The notes beneath the pieces are model-generated. The model was not told the origin of the DNA. It made no database searches and saw only the letters and a program-made list of their open reading frames with translations. This document shows positions 24,836 through 58,126 of a DNA stretch of 64,000 nucleotides, in pieces. Each line of letters starts with the position of its first letter. Within the stretch, counting starts at the first letter, position 1. The stretch is from an uncultured Pelagibacteraceae bacterium (GTDB lineage Bacteria; Pseudomonadota; Alphaproteobacteria; Pelagibacterales; Pelagibacteraceae). A program made the position numbers and the translations under genes. The stretch is taken from NCBI GenBank assembly GCA_902567495.1, contig CACFMO010000001.1, positions 62,001 to 126,000 of the forward strand, written 5' to 3'.

Positions 24836-24912
<77 letters not shown>

Positions 24913-27139: not shown

Positions 27140-28900
27140 ATGCCTATATATAATGCACCAGTTGAAGAAATGATGTTTTTATTTGACCATTTAAAAGATA
27201 ATAAAAACTACAAAGAAATAGATAAATACAAAGATATAAATTCTGATTTAGTTAAAGATATTCTACAACAAGCAGCTAAAATTAATCAGGAGTTAATCCT
27301 ACCTCTAGCAAAAATTGGTGATGAAAAGCCTTGTGTTTATGAAAATGGAATAGTTCGATCTCCACCAGGATATAAAGAGGCTTACAAAAAATTTATTGAA
27401 GATGGATGGACATCGTTATCTTGTGACCCAAAATATGGTGGTCAAGGTATGCCAAAGACCGTTAGTACATTTTTTGAGGAGATGCTTTCATCCTCTAGTC
27501 TTTCTTTTAAACTTTATAGTGAATTAAGTATTGGAGCATATAACTGCATACTTCATCATGCAGATGAAGAAATTAAAAATAAGTATTTACCAAAAATCGT
27601 TGAAGGTAAATGGAGTGGTACAATGTGTCTTACTGAGTCCCACTGTGGCACAGATCTGGGGCTATTGAAAACTAAAGCCGTTAAACAAAAAGATAATTTT
27701 TATAAGTTAACCGGACAAAAAATTTTTATAACCTCAGGCGATCATGATTTAACCGAAAATATAATACATTTAGTTTTAGCAAGAGTACCTGGATCTCCAT
27801 CTGGAACAAAAGGTATTAGTTTATTTCTTGTTCCTAAATTTGTTGTTAAAGACGATGGATCAATCGGTCCAAGAAATGGAGTGAATACTGGATCAATAGA
27901 GACAAAAATGGGAATTAAGGGATCTCCAACTTGTGTTCTAAATTTTGAAAATGCAACTGGCTATATGATAGGACCTGAAAATAAAGGTTTAAGCTCTATG
28001 TTCACTATGATGAACCTAGAAAGAATTGTCGTGGGTATTCAAGGTTTAGGTATTTCGGAAACAGCATACCAAAATGCTCTTTCATACGCTAAAGAGAGAA
28101 AACAGGGTAAAGCAAATAATAGTAATAATAAAGATGCGGATTTAATAATTAAGCACGCAGATATTAGAAGAAGTTTAATGAATATGAAATCATTAATTGA
28201 AGGTCAAAGATCTTTAGCTTTTTGGGTTTCACAACAAATAGATGTAAGTTTAAATCATTCTAACTCAACAATTAAAAAAAATGCAAATGATATGGTTTCT
28301 ATGATGACTCCACTTATAAAATCTTTTTTTACTGATATAGGAATGGAAATAACAAATGATGCGATACAAGTTTTTGGTGGATATGGTTATACTAAAGATC
28401 AAGGAATTGAACAATTATTTAGAGATAATAGAATTACCCCCATATATGAAGGAACAAATTCAGTTCAAGCTATTGATTTAGTTTTTAGAAAAATTCTGAA
28501 TAATAATATTTATGATAACTATATAGCTCAAATTACAAAAGAGATACAAGAGTATGAAAAAAATAAAGAACTAGCAATATTTGTTCAAAAATTTCATAAA
28601 TATGTTGAGCTTATAAATAATTTTACTTCCTGGCTTATTGAAAAAAATAAAAATTCAAAAGATGATGTTAGTGCAGCCTGCAATGATTATTTGAAAGTTT
28701 TAGGTTATTTGGGTCTAGCTCATTCTTGGCTAAAAATTCTTAAAGTTAGCTACGATAAATATGATACTAATAAATCTTTTTTCGAAGACAAAATAAATAC
28801 AGCGACTTACTATTTTGATAAAATCTTACCAAGAGCCCAAAGTCATTATTTATCGGCGGTAACAGGAAGTCAATCAATGATGAAGGCGAATTTTAATTGA
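27140..28900 (+). CDS. Acyl-CoA dehydrogenase (DmdC-like by context)
   Basis: GTMCLTESHCGTDLGLLKTKA, KIFITSGDHD, QVFGGYGYTKDQGIEQLFRDNRITPIYEGTN; ~586 aa long-form ACAD. Confidence 0.92.
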   Translation: MPIYNAPVEEMMFLFDHLKDNKNYKEIDKYKDINSDLVKDILQQAAKINQELILPLAKIGDEKPCVYENGIVRSPPGYKEAYKKFIEDGWTSLSCDPKYGGQGMPKTVSTFFEEMLSSSSLSFKLYSELSIGAYNCILHHADEEIKNKYLPKIVEGKWSGTMCLTESHCGTDLGLLKTKAVKQKDNFYKLTGQKIFITSGDHDLTENIIHLVLARVPGSPSGTKGISLFLVPKFVVKDDGSIGPRNGVNTGSIETKMGIKGSPTCVLNFENATGYMIGPENKGLSSMFTMMNLERIVVGIQGLGISETAYQNALSYAKERKQGKANNSNNKDADLIIKHADIRRSLMNMKSLIEGQRSLAFWVSQQIDVSLNHSNSTIKKNANDMVSMMTPLIKSFFTDIGMEITNDAIQVFGGYGYTKDQGIEQLFRDNRITPIYEGTNSVQAIDLVFRKILNNNIYDNYIAQITKEIQEYEKNKELAIFVQKFHKYVELINNFTSWLIEKNKNSKDDVSAACNDYLKVLGYLGLAHSWLKILKVSYDKYDTNKSFFEDKINTATYYFDKILPRAQSHYLSAVTGSQSMMKANFN

Positions 28901-28901
28901 A

Positions 28902-30530
28902 ATGAACAATTACGAACAGAATCTTGAAAAAAATAAAGCAAACTACGTTCCTTTAACCCCTATAACTTTTTTAGAGAGAACAAAAGATATTTACCCAGAT
29001 TATGAGGCTTTAATTTATAAGAAAAGGACTTACACATGGAAACAAGTTTACGAGAGAGCAATTAAGTTTGCCAGTGCACTAGAAAAACATGGGGTAAAAA
29101 AGGGTGATACTGTCTCTATTATGGCAGCAAATACACCTGAATTATTTGAGGCTCACTATTCAGTTCCAATGACTGGGGCAGTATTAAATACAATTAATAC
29201 TAGATTAGATTCTAAAACAGTAGGTTATATTTTAAATCATGCAGATACTAAAGTCCTAATCGTTGATAGACAATTTAGTCCAGTTGTAAACAAAGCTTTA
29301 GAAACTATGAGTAAAAAAATTTCTGTTATAGATATTATTGATAAGCAAGAAAATTTAAAAGATGCAAAAAAAATTGGCGAACTTGAGTATGAAAGTTTTC
29401 TTAACACAGGAAATGAAAATTTTATTTGGAAAAGACCAGATGATGAGTGGCAGGCAATTTCATTAAACTATACATCAGGAACGACTGGAAATCCTAAAGG
29501 TGTAGTTTATCATCACAGAGGAGGGTATCTCATGGCTACAGGGAGTGTAACTGCATGGAATATGCCAAATAGATTAAATTTTCTTTATACTGTACCGATG
29601 TTTCATTGTAATGGTTGGTGTTATCCCTGGACTTTAGCAATGCTACATGCTCGTGTTATCTGTATTAGAAATATAAGGGCCAAGGAAATATTTGAATTAA
29701 TTTCAGAACATAAAATAACTCATTTTGGAGGTGCCCCAATTATACTAAATATGTTGGCTAATGCACCAAAAGAAGAACAAATAAAATTAAATCACAAAGT
29801 TTATGTTTTAACTGCAGCTGCACCACCACCAAGTATAATTTTTAAAAAAATGAAAGAATTAGGCTTTGAAGTCATGCATGTCTATGGATTGACCGAAACA
29901 TATGGTCATATTCTTCAGTGTGCTTGGAATAGTGAATGGGATAAACTTAATGAGGATGAAAAAGCCGATATAAGTTCACGTCAAGGAGTTCGTTATCCAA
30001 ACACTGAAGATGTTAGAGTTATGAATCCAGAAAATATGAAAACGGTTCCTCATGACGGAAAGACTATAGGAGAAATTATGATTAGAGGAAACGTCGTAAT
30101 GAAAGGTTATTTTAAAGATAAAGAAGCAACGAAAAAATCTATGAAAGATGGATGGTTTCATTCAGGAGATTTAGCTGTAATGCATCCTAATGGCTACATA
30201 CAAATTAAAGATAGATCAAAAGATATAATCATTTCTGGTGGTGAAAATATATCTTCTATTGAAATAGAAAATACTATTTCTAAACATCCATCAGTCTCTT
30301 TATCAGCTGTTGTAGCAAAACCGGATGAAAAGTGGGGTGAGTCTCCATGTGCTTTTGTTGAGCTATCACCACAAAAGAAAGCAACCGAAGAGGAAATCAT
30401 TAAGTTCTGTAGAGAGACACTTGCTGGGTTTAAAATTCCAAAAAAAATAGTTTTCGGAGATCTTCCAAAAACTTCTACCGGGAAGATAAAAAAGTACGAG
30501 CTTAGAGCTAAAGCTAAGGAATTAAGTTGA
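28902..30530 (+). CDS. Acyl-CoA ligase, methylmercaptopropionate-CoA ligase-like (DmdB-like)
   Basis: LNYTSGTTGNPKGVVYHHRGGYLMA, YTVPMFHCNGWCYPWTLAM, HVYGLTETYG, GWFHSGDLAVMHPNGYIQIKDRSKDIIISGGENISS. Confidence 0.9.
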   Translation: MNNYEQNLEKNKANYVPLTPITFLERTKDIYPDYEALIYKKRTYTWKQVYERAIKFASALEKHGVKKGDTVSIMAANTPELFEAHYSVPMTGAVLNTINTRLDSKTVGYILNHADTKVLIVDRQFSPVVNKALETMSKKISVIDIIDKQENLKDAKKIGELEYESFLNTGNENFIWKRPDDEWQAISLNYTSGTTGNPKGVVYHHRGGYLMATGSVTAWNMPNRLNFLYTVPMFHCNGWCYPWTLAMLHARVICIRNIRAKEIFELISEHKITHFGGAPIILNMLANAPKEEQIKLNHKVYVLTAAAPPPSIIFKKMKELGFEVMHVYGLTETYGHILQCAWNSEWDKLNEDEKADISSRQGVRYPNTEDVRVMNPENMKTVPHDGKTIGEIMIRGNVVMKGYFKDKEATKKSMKDGWFHSGDLAVMHPNGYIQIKDRSKDIIISGGENISSIEIENTISKHPSVSLSAVVAKPDEKWGESPCAFVELSPQKKATEEEIIKFCRETLAGFKIPKKIVFGDLPKTSTGKIKKYELRAKAKELS

Positions 30531-31306
30531 TCATTGAAGTCGATAAAAAAAAAGTTTTTGTATCTGATGCAGGACTTACCTTCGATCAAAATAAAGAAAC
30601 AGTTATTTTATTACATGGCAGTGGCCAGTCCCATGTTGTATGGTCATTAACGGAGCAGTATATTTCTTCAGTTGGTTTTAATGTACTTACAATAGATCTG
30701 CCAGGCCATGGAAATTCAGAAGGAAAGAGTTTAAAAAGTATAGAAGAAATTGCAGTTTGGTTAGATAAGTTGTTAAATAAAATTGGCACAAATCAAGTAA
30801 CAATTGTTGGTCATTCTCAAGGTTGCCTGGTCTCATTAGAATTCTCATTAAGATTTCCACAAAAGATTAAAAAGTTAATTTTTGTTGCTGGTGCATATGA
30901 AATTCCAGTTAACAAAAGCTTAATCGATCTTTCATTGTCAGGTGATATGGAGTCTTTGAATTTAATGATGAAATGGGGTTACGGTCATTCAAAACAGTTT
31001 ATAGGAGGTAATCCTTTACAAAAAATTTTAAACTCAACAAGAGAGGTAAGAGAGGTATTAGCCGTAGATTTAATAGCTTGTAATAACTATAAAAATGGCC
31101 TTAAAGCTGTAAAAAATATTAAATTTCCAACTTTGTTTATTTTTGGCGAAATGGACAAAATGATTAAATTGGAAAATGGAAAAAAATTTGCTGAATTAAT
31201 TCCTGGTTCGAAAGTTCATATCATTAAAAACTGCGGTCACATGATAATACTTGAAAATGCTTTTGAAATGAGAGAAAAGGTGGCTGAATTTTTAAAAAAT
31301 GAATAA
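30527..31306 (+). CDS. Alpha/beta hydrolase
   Basis: LLHGSGQSHVVW, TIDLPGHGNSEG, VGHSQGCLVSLE, NCGHMIILEN; TTG start overlapping the upstream stop. Confidence 0.88.
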   Translation: MIIEVDKKKVFVSDAGLTFDQNKETVILLHGSGQSHVVWSLTEQYISSVGFNVLTIDLPGHGNSEGKSLKSIEEIAVWLDKLLNKIGTNQVTIVGHSQGCLVSLEFSLRFPQKIKKLIFVAGAYEIPVNKSLIDLSLSGDMESLNLMMKWGYGHSKQFIGGNPLQKILNSTREVREVLAVDLIACNNYKNGLKAVKNIKFPTLFIFGEMDKMIKLENGKKFAELIPGSKVHIIKNCGHMIILENAFEMREKVAEFLKNE

Positions 31307-32225
31307 ATTAAAAGTATGCCTTATAGGTTATGGATATTGGGGACCAAAGTTAGCTAGAAACTTTCAAAATTCAAATTTTTTTAAACTAGTATCTGTCTCA
31401 GACAAATCCCAATCAAATTTACTAAGAGCAAAAAAAGACTTTCCATTCATAGAAACTTCAAAGGATTATAAAAAATCGATTACAAACAATATCGATATAG
31501 TCGTTATAGCCACGCCCACAAACACACATTTTCAAATATCTAAGTTTGCACTAAAAATGAAAAAACATATTTTAGTTGAGAAGCCAATTTCATTATCCGA
31601 AAAAGAGGTGCATAATTTAGAAAAAATTTCAAAAAGAAATAAAAAGAAAATATTTGTTGATTACCCGTTTATTTTTTCAGGTTCTATTAATTACATAAAA
31701 AAGATCATCGAAAGTAATAGGTTCGGTAAACTAAATGAAATAGAGTCTTATAGAGAGCAAGCACCTGTAAGAAAAGATGTTAATGTGGTTTGGGACTTAG
31801 CAGTTCATGATTTATCAATCTTGTTTTATTTATTAAAAAGTAATCCAATAAAATCAAAATCCCTAAAAATTAATAATGCACAATCTCCTAAGTCTGATAC
31901 GGCATTCATCAATTTAACTTATAAAAATAAATTAAATGTTTTCATAAAAAATACTTGGATTTCACCAATAAAAATTAGACTTATGAAATTTAAATTTAAG
32001 AATGCGATTATTTATTGTGATGAAAATGAATCTATGTATAAAATTAAAATATATTTCAAGAAAGCTAAACAAGCTAAATACAGCCTCGAGGTTCCAGAAA
32101 TAGATCTTGCTGAACCATTATCAAGACTTGTTAATTATATTTATAAAAATATCAAAAATAATGAACGAAATGTTTTTGATTACATGAATATTAATATTAC
32201 TAAAACTCTCAAAAAAATATCTTAA
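31299..32225 (+). CDS. Gfo/Idh/MocA family oxidoreductase
   Basis: VCLIGYGYWGPKLARNF, IATPTNTHFQISKFALKMKKHILVEKPIS. Confidence 0.88.
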   Translation: MNKLKVCLIGYGYWGPKLARNFQNSNFFKLVSVSDKSQSNLLRAKKDFPFIETSKDYKKSITNNIDIVVIATPTNTHFQISKFALKMKKHILVEKPISLSEKEVHNLEKISKRNKKKIFVDYPFIFSGSINYIKKIIESNRFGKLNEIESYREQAPVRKDVNVVWDLAVHDLSILFYLLKSNPIKSKSLKINNAQSPKSDTAFINLTYKNKLNVFIKNTWISPIKIRLMKFKFKNAIIYCDENESMYKIKIYFKKAKQAKYSLEVPEIDLAEPLSRLVNYIYKNIKNNERNVFDYMNINITKTLKKIS

Positions 32226-32229
32226 ATAA

Positions 32230-33340
32230 ATGAAAAAATTTGAAATTTCAAAAAATAGAAGAGTTAAAATTACACCATACACCTCTAGATTAGAAAGTTA
32301 TGGGGTAGGTGGTTATACTGTTTATAATCACATGTTATTACCAACTCATTTTAAGTCTCTTGAAGATGAATATTTTCACTTAAAAAAAGATGTTCAATTA
32401 TGGGATGTCTCTGTTCAAAAGCAAATTGAAGTTAGTGGTAGTGATTCTTATAAATTAGTTCAACTTATGACATGTAGGGACCTAAGTGGTGCGAAAGTAC
32501 TTAAATGTTACTACGTTCCTTTGATTGATGGAAATGGTAATATGATTAACGATCCACTGGTTTTAAAAGTAGAAGATATGAAATGGAGAATATGTATAGC
32601 GGACTCAGATGTTTTGCTTTATGCGAAAGGAATTGCTGACTCAATGAAATTAAATGTAAAAATTCATGAGACAAAAATTTCTACTCTCGCAGTACAAGGA
32701 CCCAAATCTTTGGATTTAATGAGAAAAGTTTTTGGAGATGAGATCAGTAAACTTAAGTTTTTTAATTTTAATTATTTTAAATTCGAAGGCATAGATTTTA
32801 TGATATCAAAATCTGGTTTTTCTAAGCAAGGTGGTTACGAGATCTACGTTGAAAATTCGATGTCAGGTCTTAAACTTTATGATTATATTATTAAAGTTGG
32901 TAACAAGTTTAATTTAAAACCAGGTTGTCCAAATGTTATTGAAAGAATAGAGGGTGCTTTGTTGTCCTATGGTAACGATATGGATAATAATGATAATCCC
33001 TTTGAATGTGGATTAGATAAATATATTAATTTGGAGAGTAATATTGAATTTTTAGGAAAAAAAGCATTACAAAAAGTTAAATTGGAAGGAATTAAAAGAA
33101 AACTAATGGGTGTAAAAATAAACGAAAAAAACATCAACTTAACATCAGAGTTAAAACTGGTGGATGAAAATAAAAAACACTGTAGGATATTTAAGATCTG
33201 CAGCTTATTCACCCAAGTTTAAAATGATAGTTGGAATAGCTATGATAAACCTCGATTATTGCAAAGATTCTCAAAATTTTAAAATAAATATAAATAACAA
33301 AGAGGCATCTGGATCAGTTTGTAGTTTACCAATGAACTAA
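32230..33340 (+). CDS. dmdA: DMSP demethylase DmdA-like / GcvT-family aminomethyltransferase, frameshifted near 33172-33178
   Basis: [85 protein letters not shown]. The ORF stops at 33222, but the expected C-terminus ([27 protein letters not shown]...SVCSLPMN*) continues in the next frame to 33340. Confidence 0.78.
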
Positions 33341-33341
33341 T

Positions 33342-33626
33342 ATGAAAAGAGCTAAAATTTTTATACCTAGTAAAACAGCAATGCAATCAGGCAGGGGCAA
33401 AACCAAAAAATGGGTTCTTGCATTTGAGTCAAAAAATACAAAAACAAATCCACTAATGGGCTGGGAATCTGGAGAAGATACTTTAGGCGAAGTTTTGTTA
33501 AAGTTTTCAACAAAAGAAAAAGCTATAGAATATGCAAAAAAAAATAATATTAATTTCCAAGTTATAGAACCCAAAAAATCAAATTTTATAATCAAATCAT
33601 ACGCTGATAATTTTTTGAAAGATTAG
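33342..33626 (+). CDS. ETC complex I subunit-like protein (NDUFS4 family)
   Basis: KIFIPSKTAMQSGRGKTKKWVLAFE.....NPLMGWESGEDTLGEVLLKFSTKEKAIEYAKKNNI. Confidence 0.88.
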   Translation: MKRAKIFIPSKTAMQSGRGKTKKWVLAFESKNTKTNPLMGWESGEDTLGEVLLKFSTKEKAIEYAKKNNINFQVIEPKKSNFIIKSYADNFLKD

Positions 33627-53387: not shown

Positions 53388-54503
53388 TTAATTAAATTTA
53401 GAAATATTTTCTTTATAAAAATCATCGAAAGAACCATCTTTTATTGAGGCTCTAATTTTTTTCATAAATTGTTGATAAAAATTTATATTATGTAAAGAGA
53501 TTAACATGGAAGCTAATATTTCATTGGTGTTAATTAAATGATTTAGATAGCTTTTTGAATATTTATTTAAACTTCTCAAATTTGTATTCTCGTCTAAAGG
53601 CTTCAAGTCTTTTTTATATTTTGAATTTCTTATATTTACTTTTCCATCCCAAGTAAAAGCAAGACCGGTTCTACCTGATCTAGTTGGTAAAACACAATCA
53701 AACATGTCTATGCCAGATTTAACTGCACCCAATAAATCTGATGGCGTTCCAACACCCATGAGGTATCTCGGTTTATTTTTTGGCATTTTATTTGTGATAT
53801 TATCAAGAACCTCAAACATTTCATTTTGCTTTTCTCCAACAGCTAACCCCCCTAAAGCATATCCATCAAAATTAATTTCTAATAACTTTTCTAAACTTTC
53901 AATTCTCAGGTCATTAAATAATCCACCCTGCACAATTCCGAAAAGAGATTTGTTTTCAGCATTATCAAATTCAATTTTGGATCTTTTTGCCCAATATGTT
54001 GAAACATCAATGGCGTTTGAAATTATTTTTTTATCATTAGTGAGTTTAGGACATTCATCTAAAACCATTAAAATATCTGAATTGATTGTTTTTTGTATTT
54101 GAATACTTTTTTCTGGACTAAGTTCAATTTTTTTACCATCAAGGTGAGATTGGAAAATAGCACCTTTTTCTTTATCAATTTTTCTAAACTTCGATAATGA
54201 CATTATTTGAAAACCTCCAGAGTCTGTCAAAATTGGTTTATGCCAATTCATAAATTGATGGAGACCACCAATATTTTTTAAGATTTCTAATCCTGGCCTT
54301 AAAAAAAGATGGTAAGTATTTCCCAAGATTATTTGCGAATTTGTCTTAATAATATCATCAACAAAAATACTTTTTACAGTACCCTGTGTGCCGACAGGCA
54401 TAAATACGGGTGTATCAATCAAACCTCGTGAAGTTCTAATCTGTCCAAGTCTTGCCTCTTTGTGAGTTTTGATTAATTCAAAAAAAACTTTTTTTGAATT
54501 CAT
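53388..54503 (-). CDS. tgt: tRNA-guanine transglycosylase
   Basis: TPVFMPVGTQGTVKSI, LGNTYHLFLRPG, LTDSGGFQIMSLSK, GGLAVGE, RYLMGVGTPSDLL, FDCVLPTRSGR. Confidence 0.95.
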   Translation of the reverse strand: MNSKKVFFELIKTHKEARLGQIRTSRGLIDTPVFMPVGTQGTVKSIFVDDIIKTNSQIILGNTYHLFLRPGLEILKNIGGLHQFMNWHKPILTDSGGFQIMSLSKFRKIDKEKGAIFQSHLDGKKIELSPEKSIQIQKTINSDILMVLDECPKLTNDKKIISNAIDVSTYWAKRSKIEFDNAENKSLFGIVQGGLFNDLRIESLEKLLEINFDGYALGGLAVGEKQNEMFEVLDNITNKMPKNKPRYLMGVGTPSDLLGAVKSGIDMFDCVLPTRSGRTGLAFTWDGKVNIRNSKYKKDLKPLDENTNLRSLNKYSKSYLNHLINTNEILASMLISLHNINFYQQFMKKIRASIKDGSFDDFYKENISKFN

Positions 54504-54507
54504 TTAC

Positions 54508-55059
54508 TTATTTTATTACAGAAAAACTTATTATCTTATCTGGATTTGCAACAGACCCGTTTGGATCATTTCCTTTTTTTATTTTATCTATCAATTCCAT
54601 ACCCTTGGTCACTTTCCCAAAAACTGTGTACTGACCATCTAAATGAGGAGCTGCATCAAAACAAATAAAAAATTGACTATTAGCACTATTTGGATTCATT
54701 GAACGTGCCATAGATAAAGTTCCTCTTTGATGTGGAAGATTGCTAAATTCAGCTTTTAAGTCTGCTAAAGAAGAACCGCCGGTTCCAACTAGATCAGCAT
54801 TAAAATTTTTTGAATTTCCAAATTTTACGTCCCCTGTTTGAGCCATAAAACCATCAATAACTCTATGAAAAACTACTCCGTCATACTCTTTGTTTTCTGC
54901 TAAAGTTTTAATCCTTTTAACATGTCCTGGTGCAACCTCTGGAAATAATTGAATTTCAACCTCACCAGTCTCAAGTTTCATTAACATTTTGTCATTTGCT
55001 GTAGAAGTATTCATAAAAAGTAATAACGTTATTATATATACTAAAAAAAATCTTTTCAC
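54508..55059 (-). CDS. Peptidyl-prolyl cis-trans isomerase (cyclophilin type), with signal peptide
   Basis: VFHRVIDGFMAQTGDV, GTLSMARSMNPNSANSQFFICFDAAPHLDGQYTVFGKV. Confidence 0.94.
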   Translation of the reverse strand: MKRFFLVYIITLLLFMNTSTANDKMLMKLETGEVEIQLFPEVAPGHVKRIKTLAENKEYDGVVFHRVIDGFMAQTGDVKFGNSKNFNADLVGTGGSSLADLKAEFSNLPHQRGTLSMARSMNPNSANSQFFICFDAAPHLDGQYTVFGKVTKGMELIDKIKKGNDPNGSVANPDKIISFSVIK

Positions 55060-55552: not shown

Positions 55553-58126
55553 TTAATCTATATTATCTTCTATCTTGATTGCAGAAACAACTTTTTCTTC
55601 ACCAGATAATTTAATAATTCTCACACCTTGGGTATTTCGACCTGCAATTCTAATTTCCTTAACTTGAACTCTTATTACTCTTCCTTTATCGGTTGATAAT
55701 ATAATTTGATCTTTGTCTGTAACTATAAAATTTGATGTAACGTTTCCATTTCTTTTTGAATTAACTATCCCTATAATTCCTTTTCCGCCTCTATTAGTAA
55801 CTCTAAAGTCTGACAAGGAACTTCTTTTTCCATAACCATTTTCGGTGATAGATAGCACATATTCGTTTAATGGTAGTTTTTTTGATCCATTCTTTTTCAA
55901 ATTCTCACTAGCTTTTTGACTGCTATCAATAACTGATAAAGACATTACGCTGTCATCATCTTGTAAATTTATACCTCTGATACCTTTGGAAGACCTACCT
56001 TTGAATAATCTCATTTTTTTAGACATGAATCTAATACATTTTCCAAATTTAGTTCCCAATATAATATCTTGATTTTCCTTACATTTTTCTACACCAATAA
56101 TTTTATCATTTTCATCAAGTTTCATTGCAATTTTTCCACTCGCGTTTACATTTAAAAAATCAATTAATGAATTTTTTCTTACCTTCCCTTTCGCTGTAAC
56201 GAATACAACATAAAGTTTCTGCCACTCACTATCATTTTCAGGTAAGAGAAGTGTTGATGTAATTGATTGTGTGTTTTTAAGTGGTAACAAATTAAATAAA
56301 GATTTTCCTTTTGAAGATAGACTTCCTTTCGGGATTTTCCAGGCTTTAAGCTTATAAGCTAAACCTTGTGATGAAAAAAATAAAACTTGACTGTGAGAAT
56401 TTCCAGTTAAAATTCTAACTACAAAGTCTTCTTCCCTTGTTGTTATACCTGTTTTTCCTTTTCCTCCCCTTTTCTGTGTTTTAACCGATGATAATGATCC
56501 TCTTTTAATATATCCTTGATTAGTAATATTAATTACAACTGCCTCTTTTTGAATAGTTTCTTCAATATTATAATTTAAAACTGTATCAACTATTTTTGTT
56601 CTTCGTTTAATTGAAAATTTATTTTTAATTTCTTCTAATTCTTTAATTATCAAATTAAAAAGTTCTTTTTTTGATTTTATGATTTTATTGTAGTAAATTA
56701 TTAGTTCAGATAATTTCTTAATTTCAGTTTCAATTTCACTAATCCCGAAAGCGGTTAGTTTTTGTAGTCTTAACTCTAAAATTGAATTAACTTGTATTTC
56801 ACTTAATTGATATTTAGATAAATTTTGTTTTTTTTCGATCATAGAAACTAGTTTAGAACTTTTTTTAATTGGCCATTTTTTATTTAATAAATTTTTCTTT
56901 GCTGTCTCGGTATCTTTTGAGTTTTTAATAATTTTGATTATTGCATCAATACTCTCGACTGCAGTAGCGATACCAATTAATATATGTGCTCTATCCTCTG
57001 TTTTTTTAAGGTCAAACTTAATACTTCTAAGTACAGTTTTTTCTCTAAAAGAGACAAATTGTGAAATGAACTCCTTTAGATTAAGTATTTTTGGTTTTCC
57101 ATCAACAATCGCTAAAGTATTAAAACCAAAAGAAGATTCTACACTAGTTAATTTATAAAGTTGTCTTCTTATCGTTTCTGCTTCTACACCTCTTCTTAAA
57201 TCTATTACTACTCTTATACCGTCTCGATTAGACTCATCTCTAATATCACTTACACCTTCAATTTTTTTTTGTCGTGATAGATCAGCAATTCTCTCATTTA
57301 AAACAGATTTGTTTATTTGATAAGGTATAGATTTTATAACAAGTCTTGTTTTACCATTTTTTAAACTTTCCTCTTCAATTTCTCCTCTTATTTTAAAAGA
57401 ACCTCTACCTTTGTTATAACCTTGTTTAATTATATCTCTTCCAATTATTAAACCTCCCGTTGGAAAATCTGGACCAGGAATATGTTTCATCAACTGACCA
57501 ATTGTAATGTCGTTATTTTTTATATATCCGATAGTACCGTCAATAATTTCTCCCAAATTATGAGGGGGAATACTTGTGGCCATTCCAACAGCGATACCCC
57601 CAGCTCCATTAACCAAAAGATTAGGATATTGTGATGGAAGAACAGTTGGCTCTCTTTCTGTTTCGTCATAATTGTTTCTAAAATCTACTGTGTTTTTTTC
57701 TAATCCTTCAGTAAGAAATTGAGAAACTTTTGAAAGCTTTGTTTCTGTGTATCTCATGGCCGCAGGAGGATCACCATCTATTGAACCGAAATTACCTTGT
57801 CCGTCAATTAATGGTAAACTCATAGAAAAATCTTGGACCAATCTTACTAATGCATCATAAACTGCCTGGTCTCCATGTGGGTGATATTTACCAATTACAT
57901 CACCAACTATTCTTGCAGATTTACGGAAAGGTTTTCCCCAATCATAACCACCTTTGTACATTGCATAAATAATTCTTCTATGAACTGGTTTTAAACCGTC
58001 CCTTACATCAGGAAGGGCTCTACTAACTATTACGCTCATAGCATATGAAAGATAAGATGAGCTCATTTCTTGATGAACAAAAATTGGTTTATAATTTGAA
58101 TTATTTTTTACTTCTGTCTTTTGCAT
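55553..58126 (-). CDS. gyrA: DNA gyrase subunit A
   Basis: [65 protein letters not shown]-terminal beta-pinwheel repeats. Confidence 0.96.

Follow-up and report, generated by a model that had tools for sequence, protein, structure and literature searches.

A one-base frame break in dmdA of an uncultured Pelagibacteraceae bacterium is probably a spurious insertion

A SAR11 dmdA gene read in two frames

The stretch of DNA analyzed here (the window; 64,000 nucleotides, G000:C1:62001-126000) belongs to a Pelagibacteraceae genome assembly of 0.97 Mb in 25 contigs, which is ~88% complete. On its plus strand, the window carries an intact acyl-CoA dehydrogenase gene (mmgC/DmdC-like, 27140-28900; best NCBIfam matches to acyl-CoA dehydrogenases/reductases), an intact acyl-CoA synthetase gene (fadD/DmdB-like, 28902-30530; NF006020, 871 bits) and an intact alpha/beta hydrolase gene (30527-31306; PF00561), the last comparable to mhpC of Candidatus Pelagibacter ubique (P. 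ubique) HTCC1062. Directly upstream of dmdA follows an intact gene for a Gfo/Idh/MocA oxidoreductase (31299-32225; PF01408), and directly downstream lies an intact gene for an NDUFS4-like complex I subunit (33342-33626; PF04800, 8.4e-33). The SAR11 DMSP gene set of fadD, mmgC and mhpC, as described for HTCC1062 (PMC3160333), is present near dmdA in the window as well.

The dmdA gene itself is split between two reading frames of the plus strand. Frame 1 holds an ORF of 330 aa (32230-33222), the first 316 codons of which (32230-33177) contain PF01571 and correspond to positions 1 to 317 of NF009133, the equivalog model for DmdA. Residues 1 to 317 of this frame match these positions with 464.7 bits, passing the cut-off of 410 on their own. 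The ORF then runs into an out-of-frame tail (33178-33222, including the stop codon) that is not conserved in relatives. The remainder of the model, positions 318 to 366, is matched by a frame-2 peptide of 53 codons plus stop (33179-33340), contiguous with the frame-1 match and ending in CSLPMN at 33340. This peptide alone also matches PF08669, the GcvT C-terminal barrel, above the cut-off (7.7e-08). Judging from these matches, the frame-1/frame-2 pattern is far beyond chance. No single frame encodes the complete three-domain DmdA of ~369 aa, the break falling after codon 316.

The closest solved structure is that of P. ubique DmdA (3tfh_A, 369 aa; E 6e-134), the product of SAR11_0246 in HTCC1062, for which PDB entries 3tfh, 3tfi and 3tfj exist. 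Residues 1 to 316 of the window protein align with it free of gaps; its C-terminus, in contrast, is found at the right place yet in the other frame, one extra base having entered after codon 316. DmdA has its fold, represented by PF01571 and PF08669, in common with the glycine cleavage T-protein GcvT, but an identity as GcvT was rejected, the corresponding model (NF001567) scoring 141 bits where 300 are required. Sequence comparison thereby confirmed the locus as an ordinary SAR11 (Pelagibacteraceae) DMSP demethylase gene, dmdA; the enzyme, which is common in the sea, demethylates DMSP, a compound made by algae. The family models, the P. ubique structure and dozens of relatives bore out the identity proposed in a preceding sequence-only reading. 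The one-base frame break after the A6 tract (33172-33177) and the odd tail of the 330-aa ORF, both described in that reading, are likewise present in the sequence, and the matches to PF08669 and to positions 318 to 366 of NF009133 agree with its view of the frame-2 peptide as a normal DmdA/GcvT C-terminus.

Relatives, selection and the extra base

Comparing the same locus in related genomes, as the sequence-only reading had suggested, we found the relatives to be intact in one frame. A search of the genus covered 31 genomes, 20 of which had dmdA at the stringency used; apart from the genome studied here, all of these (19/19 congeners) keep the frame open for 369 aa or more. Among the other Pelagibacteraceae loci fetched, most of which bear the names of single-cell isolates, only one (L051) is broken, by a different +1 insertion of its own further along the gene. 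With relatives at ~369 aa, a natural ending at 330 aa was rejected, and the frame-2 peptide proved similar to DmdA/GcvT C-termini, so that neither refuting condition named in the sequence-only reading was borne out. A single DmdA-type gene was found in the genome: we saw no second intact dmdA copy in it, nor did we find a match to a phage-borne dmdA.

Omega after the break is 0.08 to 0.19 against relatives, compared with 0.07 to 0.25 for pairs of intact genes, with the value against the nearest relative (0.19) at the upper end. The post-break stretch is still under purifying selection, as its intact relatives are. Aligned with five collinear relatives, dmdA and the adjacent genes contain C33178 as the only indel, and dmdA has no other break. 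With purifying selection persisting and the operon undamaged and collinear, the locus gives no indication of having decayed for long, and neither relaxed selection nor further disabling changes mark this gene as a pseudogene.

As to which base is extra, the sequence-only reading had named one A of the A6 tract, and removing an A does restore the frame. The most economical alignment points elsewhere. Where the window has AAAAAACACT, its near relatives have AAAAAA-ACT or AAAGAA-ACT, so that the single gap falls on C33178, directly 3′ of the tract and outside it (tract plus C, 33172-33178). The alternative, an extension from A5 to A6, gives KNT instead of KKT or KET at the cost of one more substitution; L041, a relative at greater distance, has N at that residue as well, and the other breaks in this assembly follow a pattern of homopolymer extension. 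An extra C33178 and an A5-to-A6 change plus substitution are of nearly equal economy, and sequence alone cannot separate them.

Further one-base insertions in the assembly and its relatives

We read 768 kb of the assembly and compared ~494 kb of that with relatives. Within the compared part, four +1 frame breaks were seen besides that in dmdA, all of them outside the window. One is in fabB, the gene of beta-ketoacyl-ACP synthase I (G000:C3, gene 95338-96547), where G7 has become G8 at approximately 96028. Each congener genome has one fabB match, full length in 26 congeners, while the two matches in our assembly are halves of one gene, which is broken here only. Loss of the fabB step of fatty acid synthesis is not expected in a free-living cell. 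The break in this single-copy gene, which is expected to be essential, is therefore very probably false, and with fabB broken in the same manner as dmdA, +1 insertions in this assembly are not to be taken at face value.

Two of the other breaks lie close together on contig C4, each extending T5 to T6: one in crtB (position 54630, gene 54102-54963) and one in blh (position 56619, gene 56020-56959). Like fabB, crtB is open in congeners wherever the match is full length. The blh frame is open in congeners too, except that in four genomes a single stop codon falls within the span of the match, leaving an open frame of 313 aa or more even there. Both genes belong to the retinal pathway, and their breaks could be either local errors or a loss of retinal synthesis. 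The fourth break affects a small hypothetical gene (G000:C1:145325).

Insertions of this kind are not limited to one assembly. Against the 99.2% identical L052, the L051 locus has, within 7.3 kb, four homopolymers lengthened by one base (positions 1795, 1933, 2246 and 3354), including the one in its dmdA, and L051 is, by this comparison, an error-rich assembly. Two further relatives each have a break seen in that genome alone, namely A5 to A6 in a DctP-family gene (G009:C3, ~128400) and A9 to A10 in metG (G011:C11, ~30770). All frame breaks examined in the group are insertions, with 0 deletions. In benchmark cultures, the GORG-Tropics single-cell workflow produced 3.0 indels per 100 kb (PMC11247762), and, judging from its relatives and its size, the present assembly was presumably made by a workflow of that kind. 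Its one-base insertions beside homopolymers in conserved genes resemble the indels reported there and occur at a rate within the measured one, with the difference that the extra base in dmdA is, in the most economical alignment, a C next to A6 rather than an extra A.

Origin of the frame break in dmdA

The sequence-only reading had left three causes side by side: a sequencing or assembly indel, pseudogenization, and slippage. The other +1 breaks, including that in fabB, favor the indel, and omega and the collinear operon make a long-standing pseudogene unlikely. The main rival to the indel is a break that is real and very recent. Such an allele would be null or truncated, lacking the C-terminal barrel, and the cell would have lost DMSP demethylation with the rest of the operon intact. 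The extra base is, after all, present in the assembly; only a single DmdA-type gene was found; no alternative DMSP lyase of the DddL/Q/W type (PF16867) was found in the genome; omega of the C-terminal part reaches the top of its range against the nearest relative; and single null mutants must occur in populations so large. (Two small-cupin matches above the cut-off were rejected as DMSP lyases, being placed in sugar-biosynthesis contexts.) Against this stand a post-break omega within the range of intact pairs, the open frame in relatives that carry dmdA, the intact and collinear operon, and a fabB broken in like manner in the same assembly, and we consider a real null allele unlikely. Were it real, it would represent a rare loss of DMSP demethylation among dmdA-bearing relatives that stay open. 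Less likely again is a natural SAR11 cell in which dmdA has only just been broken, in addition to crtB and blh; if true, the three would offer a snapshot of a streamlined genome in the course of losing both DMSP demethylation and the capture of energy from light.

Two other explanations, in which the A tract itself plays the central part, are both highly improbable. If RNA polymerase or the ribosome slipped at A6, a real break could be tolerated, with 330-aa and 369-aa products made from one gene; the tract does coincide with the break, and purifying selection acts on the frame that follows. However, repairing the frame takes the loss of one base or a +1 shift to the same effect. On runs shorter than eight As, slippage by E. 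coli RNA polymerase was undetectable, and the enzyme made no deletions on the poly(A) runs assayed (PMC6260861); deletions within homopolymers are an uncommon outcome of transcription (PMC5574713). An A6 tract is short, and a deletion is what the repair would require. Nor is there a stop codon at the shift site, as a prfB-type signal would need, and folding of the RNA beyond it does not exceed that of shuffled sequences (z 0.96), leaving no recoding structure beyond chance at the break. Conservation of the tract is lacking as well, AAAGAA standing in its place in the nearest relative, and none of the intact relatives depends on a shift. Among Rfam elements, none was found at the break site, only a tRNA upstream. 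There is, in sum, no support for a programmed event at the break. The second explanation, out-of-register recombination or a chimeric join of two dmdA alleles (A7 and A5-then-C) in the A tract, draws on window-unique bases that are somewhat concentrated at 33162-33216, and on residues there (VG, SAAYSP) that intact DmdAs of greater distance share. Four window-unique substitutions lie within 30 nt of the break. This clustering is weak and not significant, though (permutation p ~0.08), no donor allele was present among the loci examined, and downstream identity returns to the close relatives. A gene-conversion patch was rejected for the same weak clustering and missing donor, and so was a local complex error suggested by substitutions near the other breaks, most of which are shared polymorphisms.

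We therefore regard a spurious +1 insertion as the probable cause of the dmdA break. Because the same assembly has +1 insertions in fabB, crtB and blh, genes that are intact in relatives, an artifact is most likely, and we infer that the base at 33178 is an error that would have been added during genome amplification, sequencing or assembly. Two observations do run counter to this reading: aligned most economically, the dmdA break differs from the others in not being a simple extension of a homopolymer, and the window-unique substitutions lie close by. Under a spurious insertion, the living cell would most likely encode the usual 369-aa DMSP demethylase, predicted to move a methyl group from DMSP to tetrahydrofolate. 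The case cautions that single spurious bases can mimic gene loss in uncultured SAR11 genomes, here of a key step in the marine sulfur cycle; a practical check on any apparent loss is to look for breaks in essential single-copy genes of the same assembly.

A minor observation concerns a tRNA gene in the window (24836-24909), which lies just upstream of the gene for a 3-hydroxyacyl-CoA dehydrogenase/hydratase. It overlaps the TTG listed as a start at 24869, so that the true start is probably another one.
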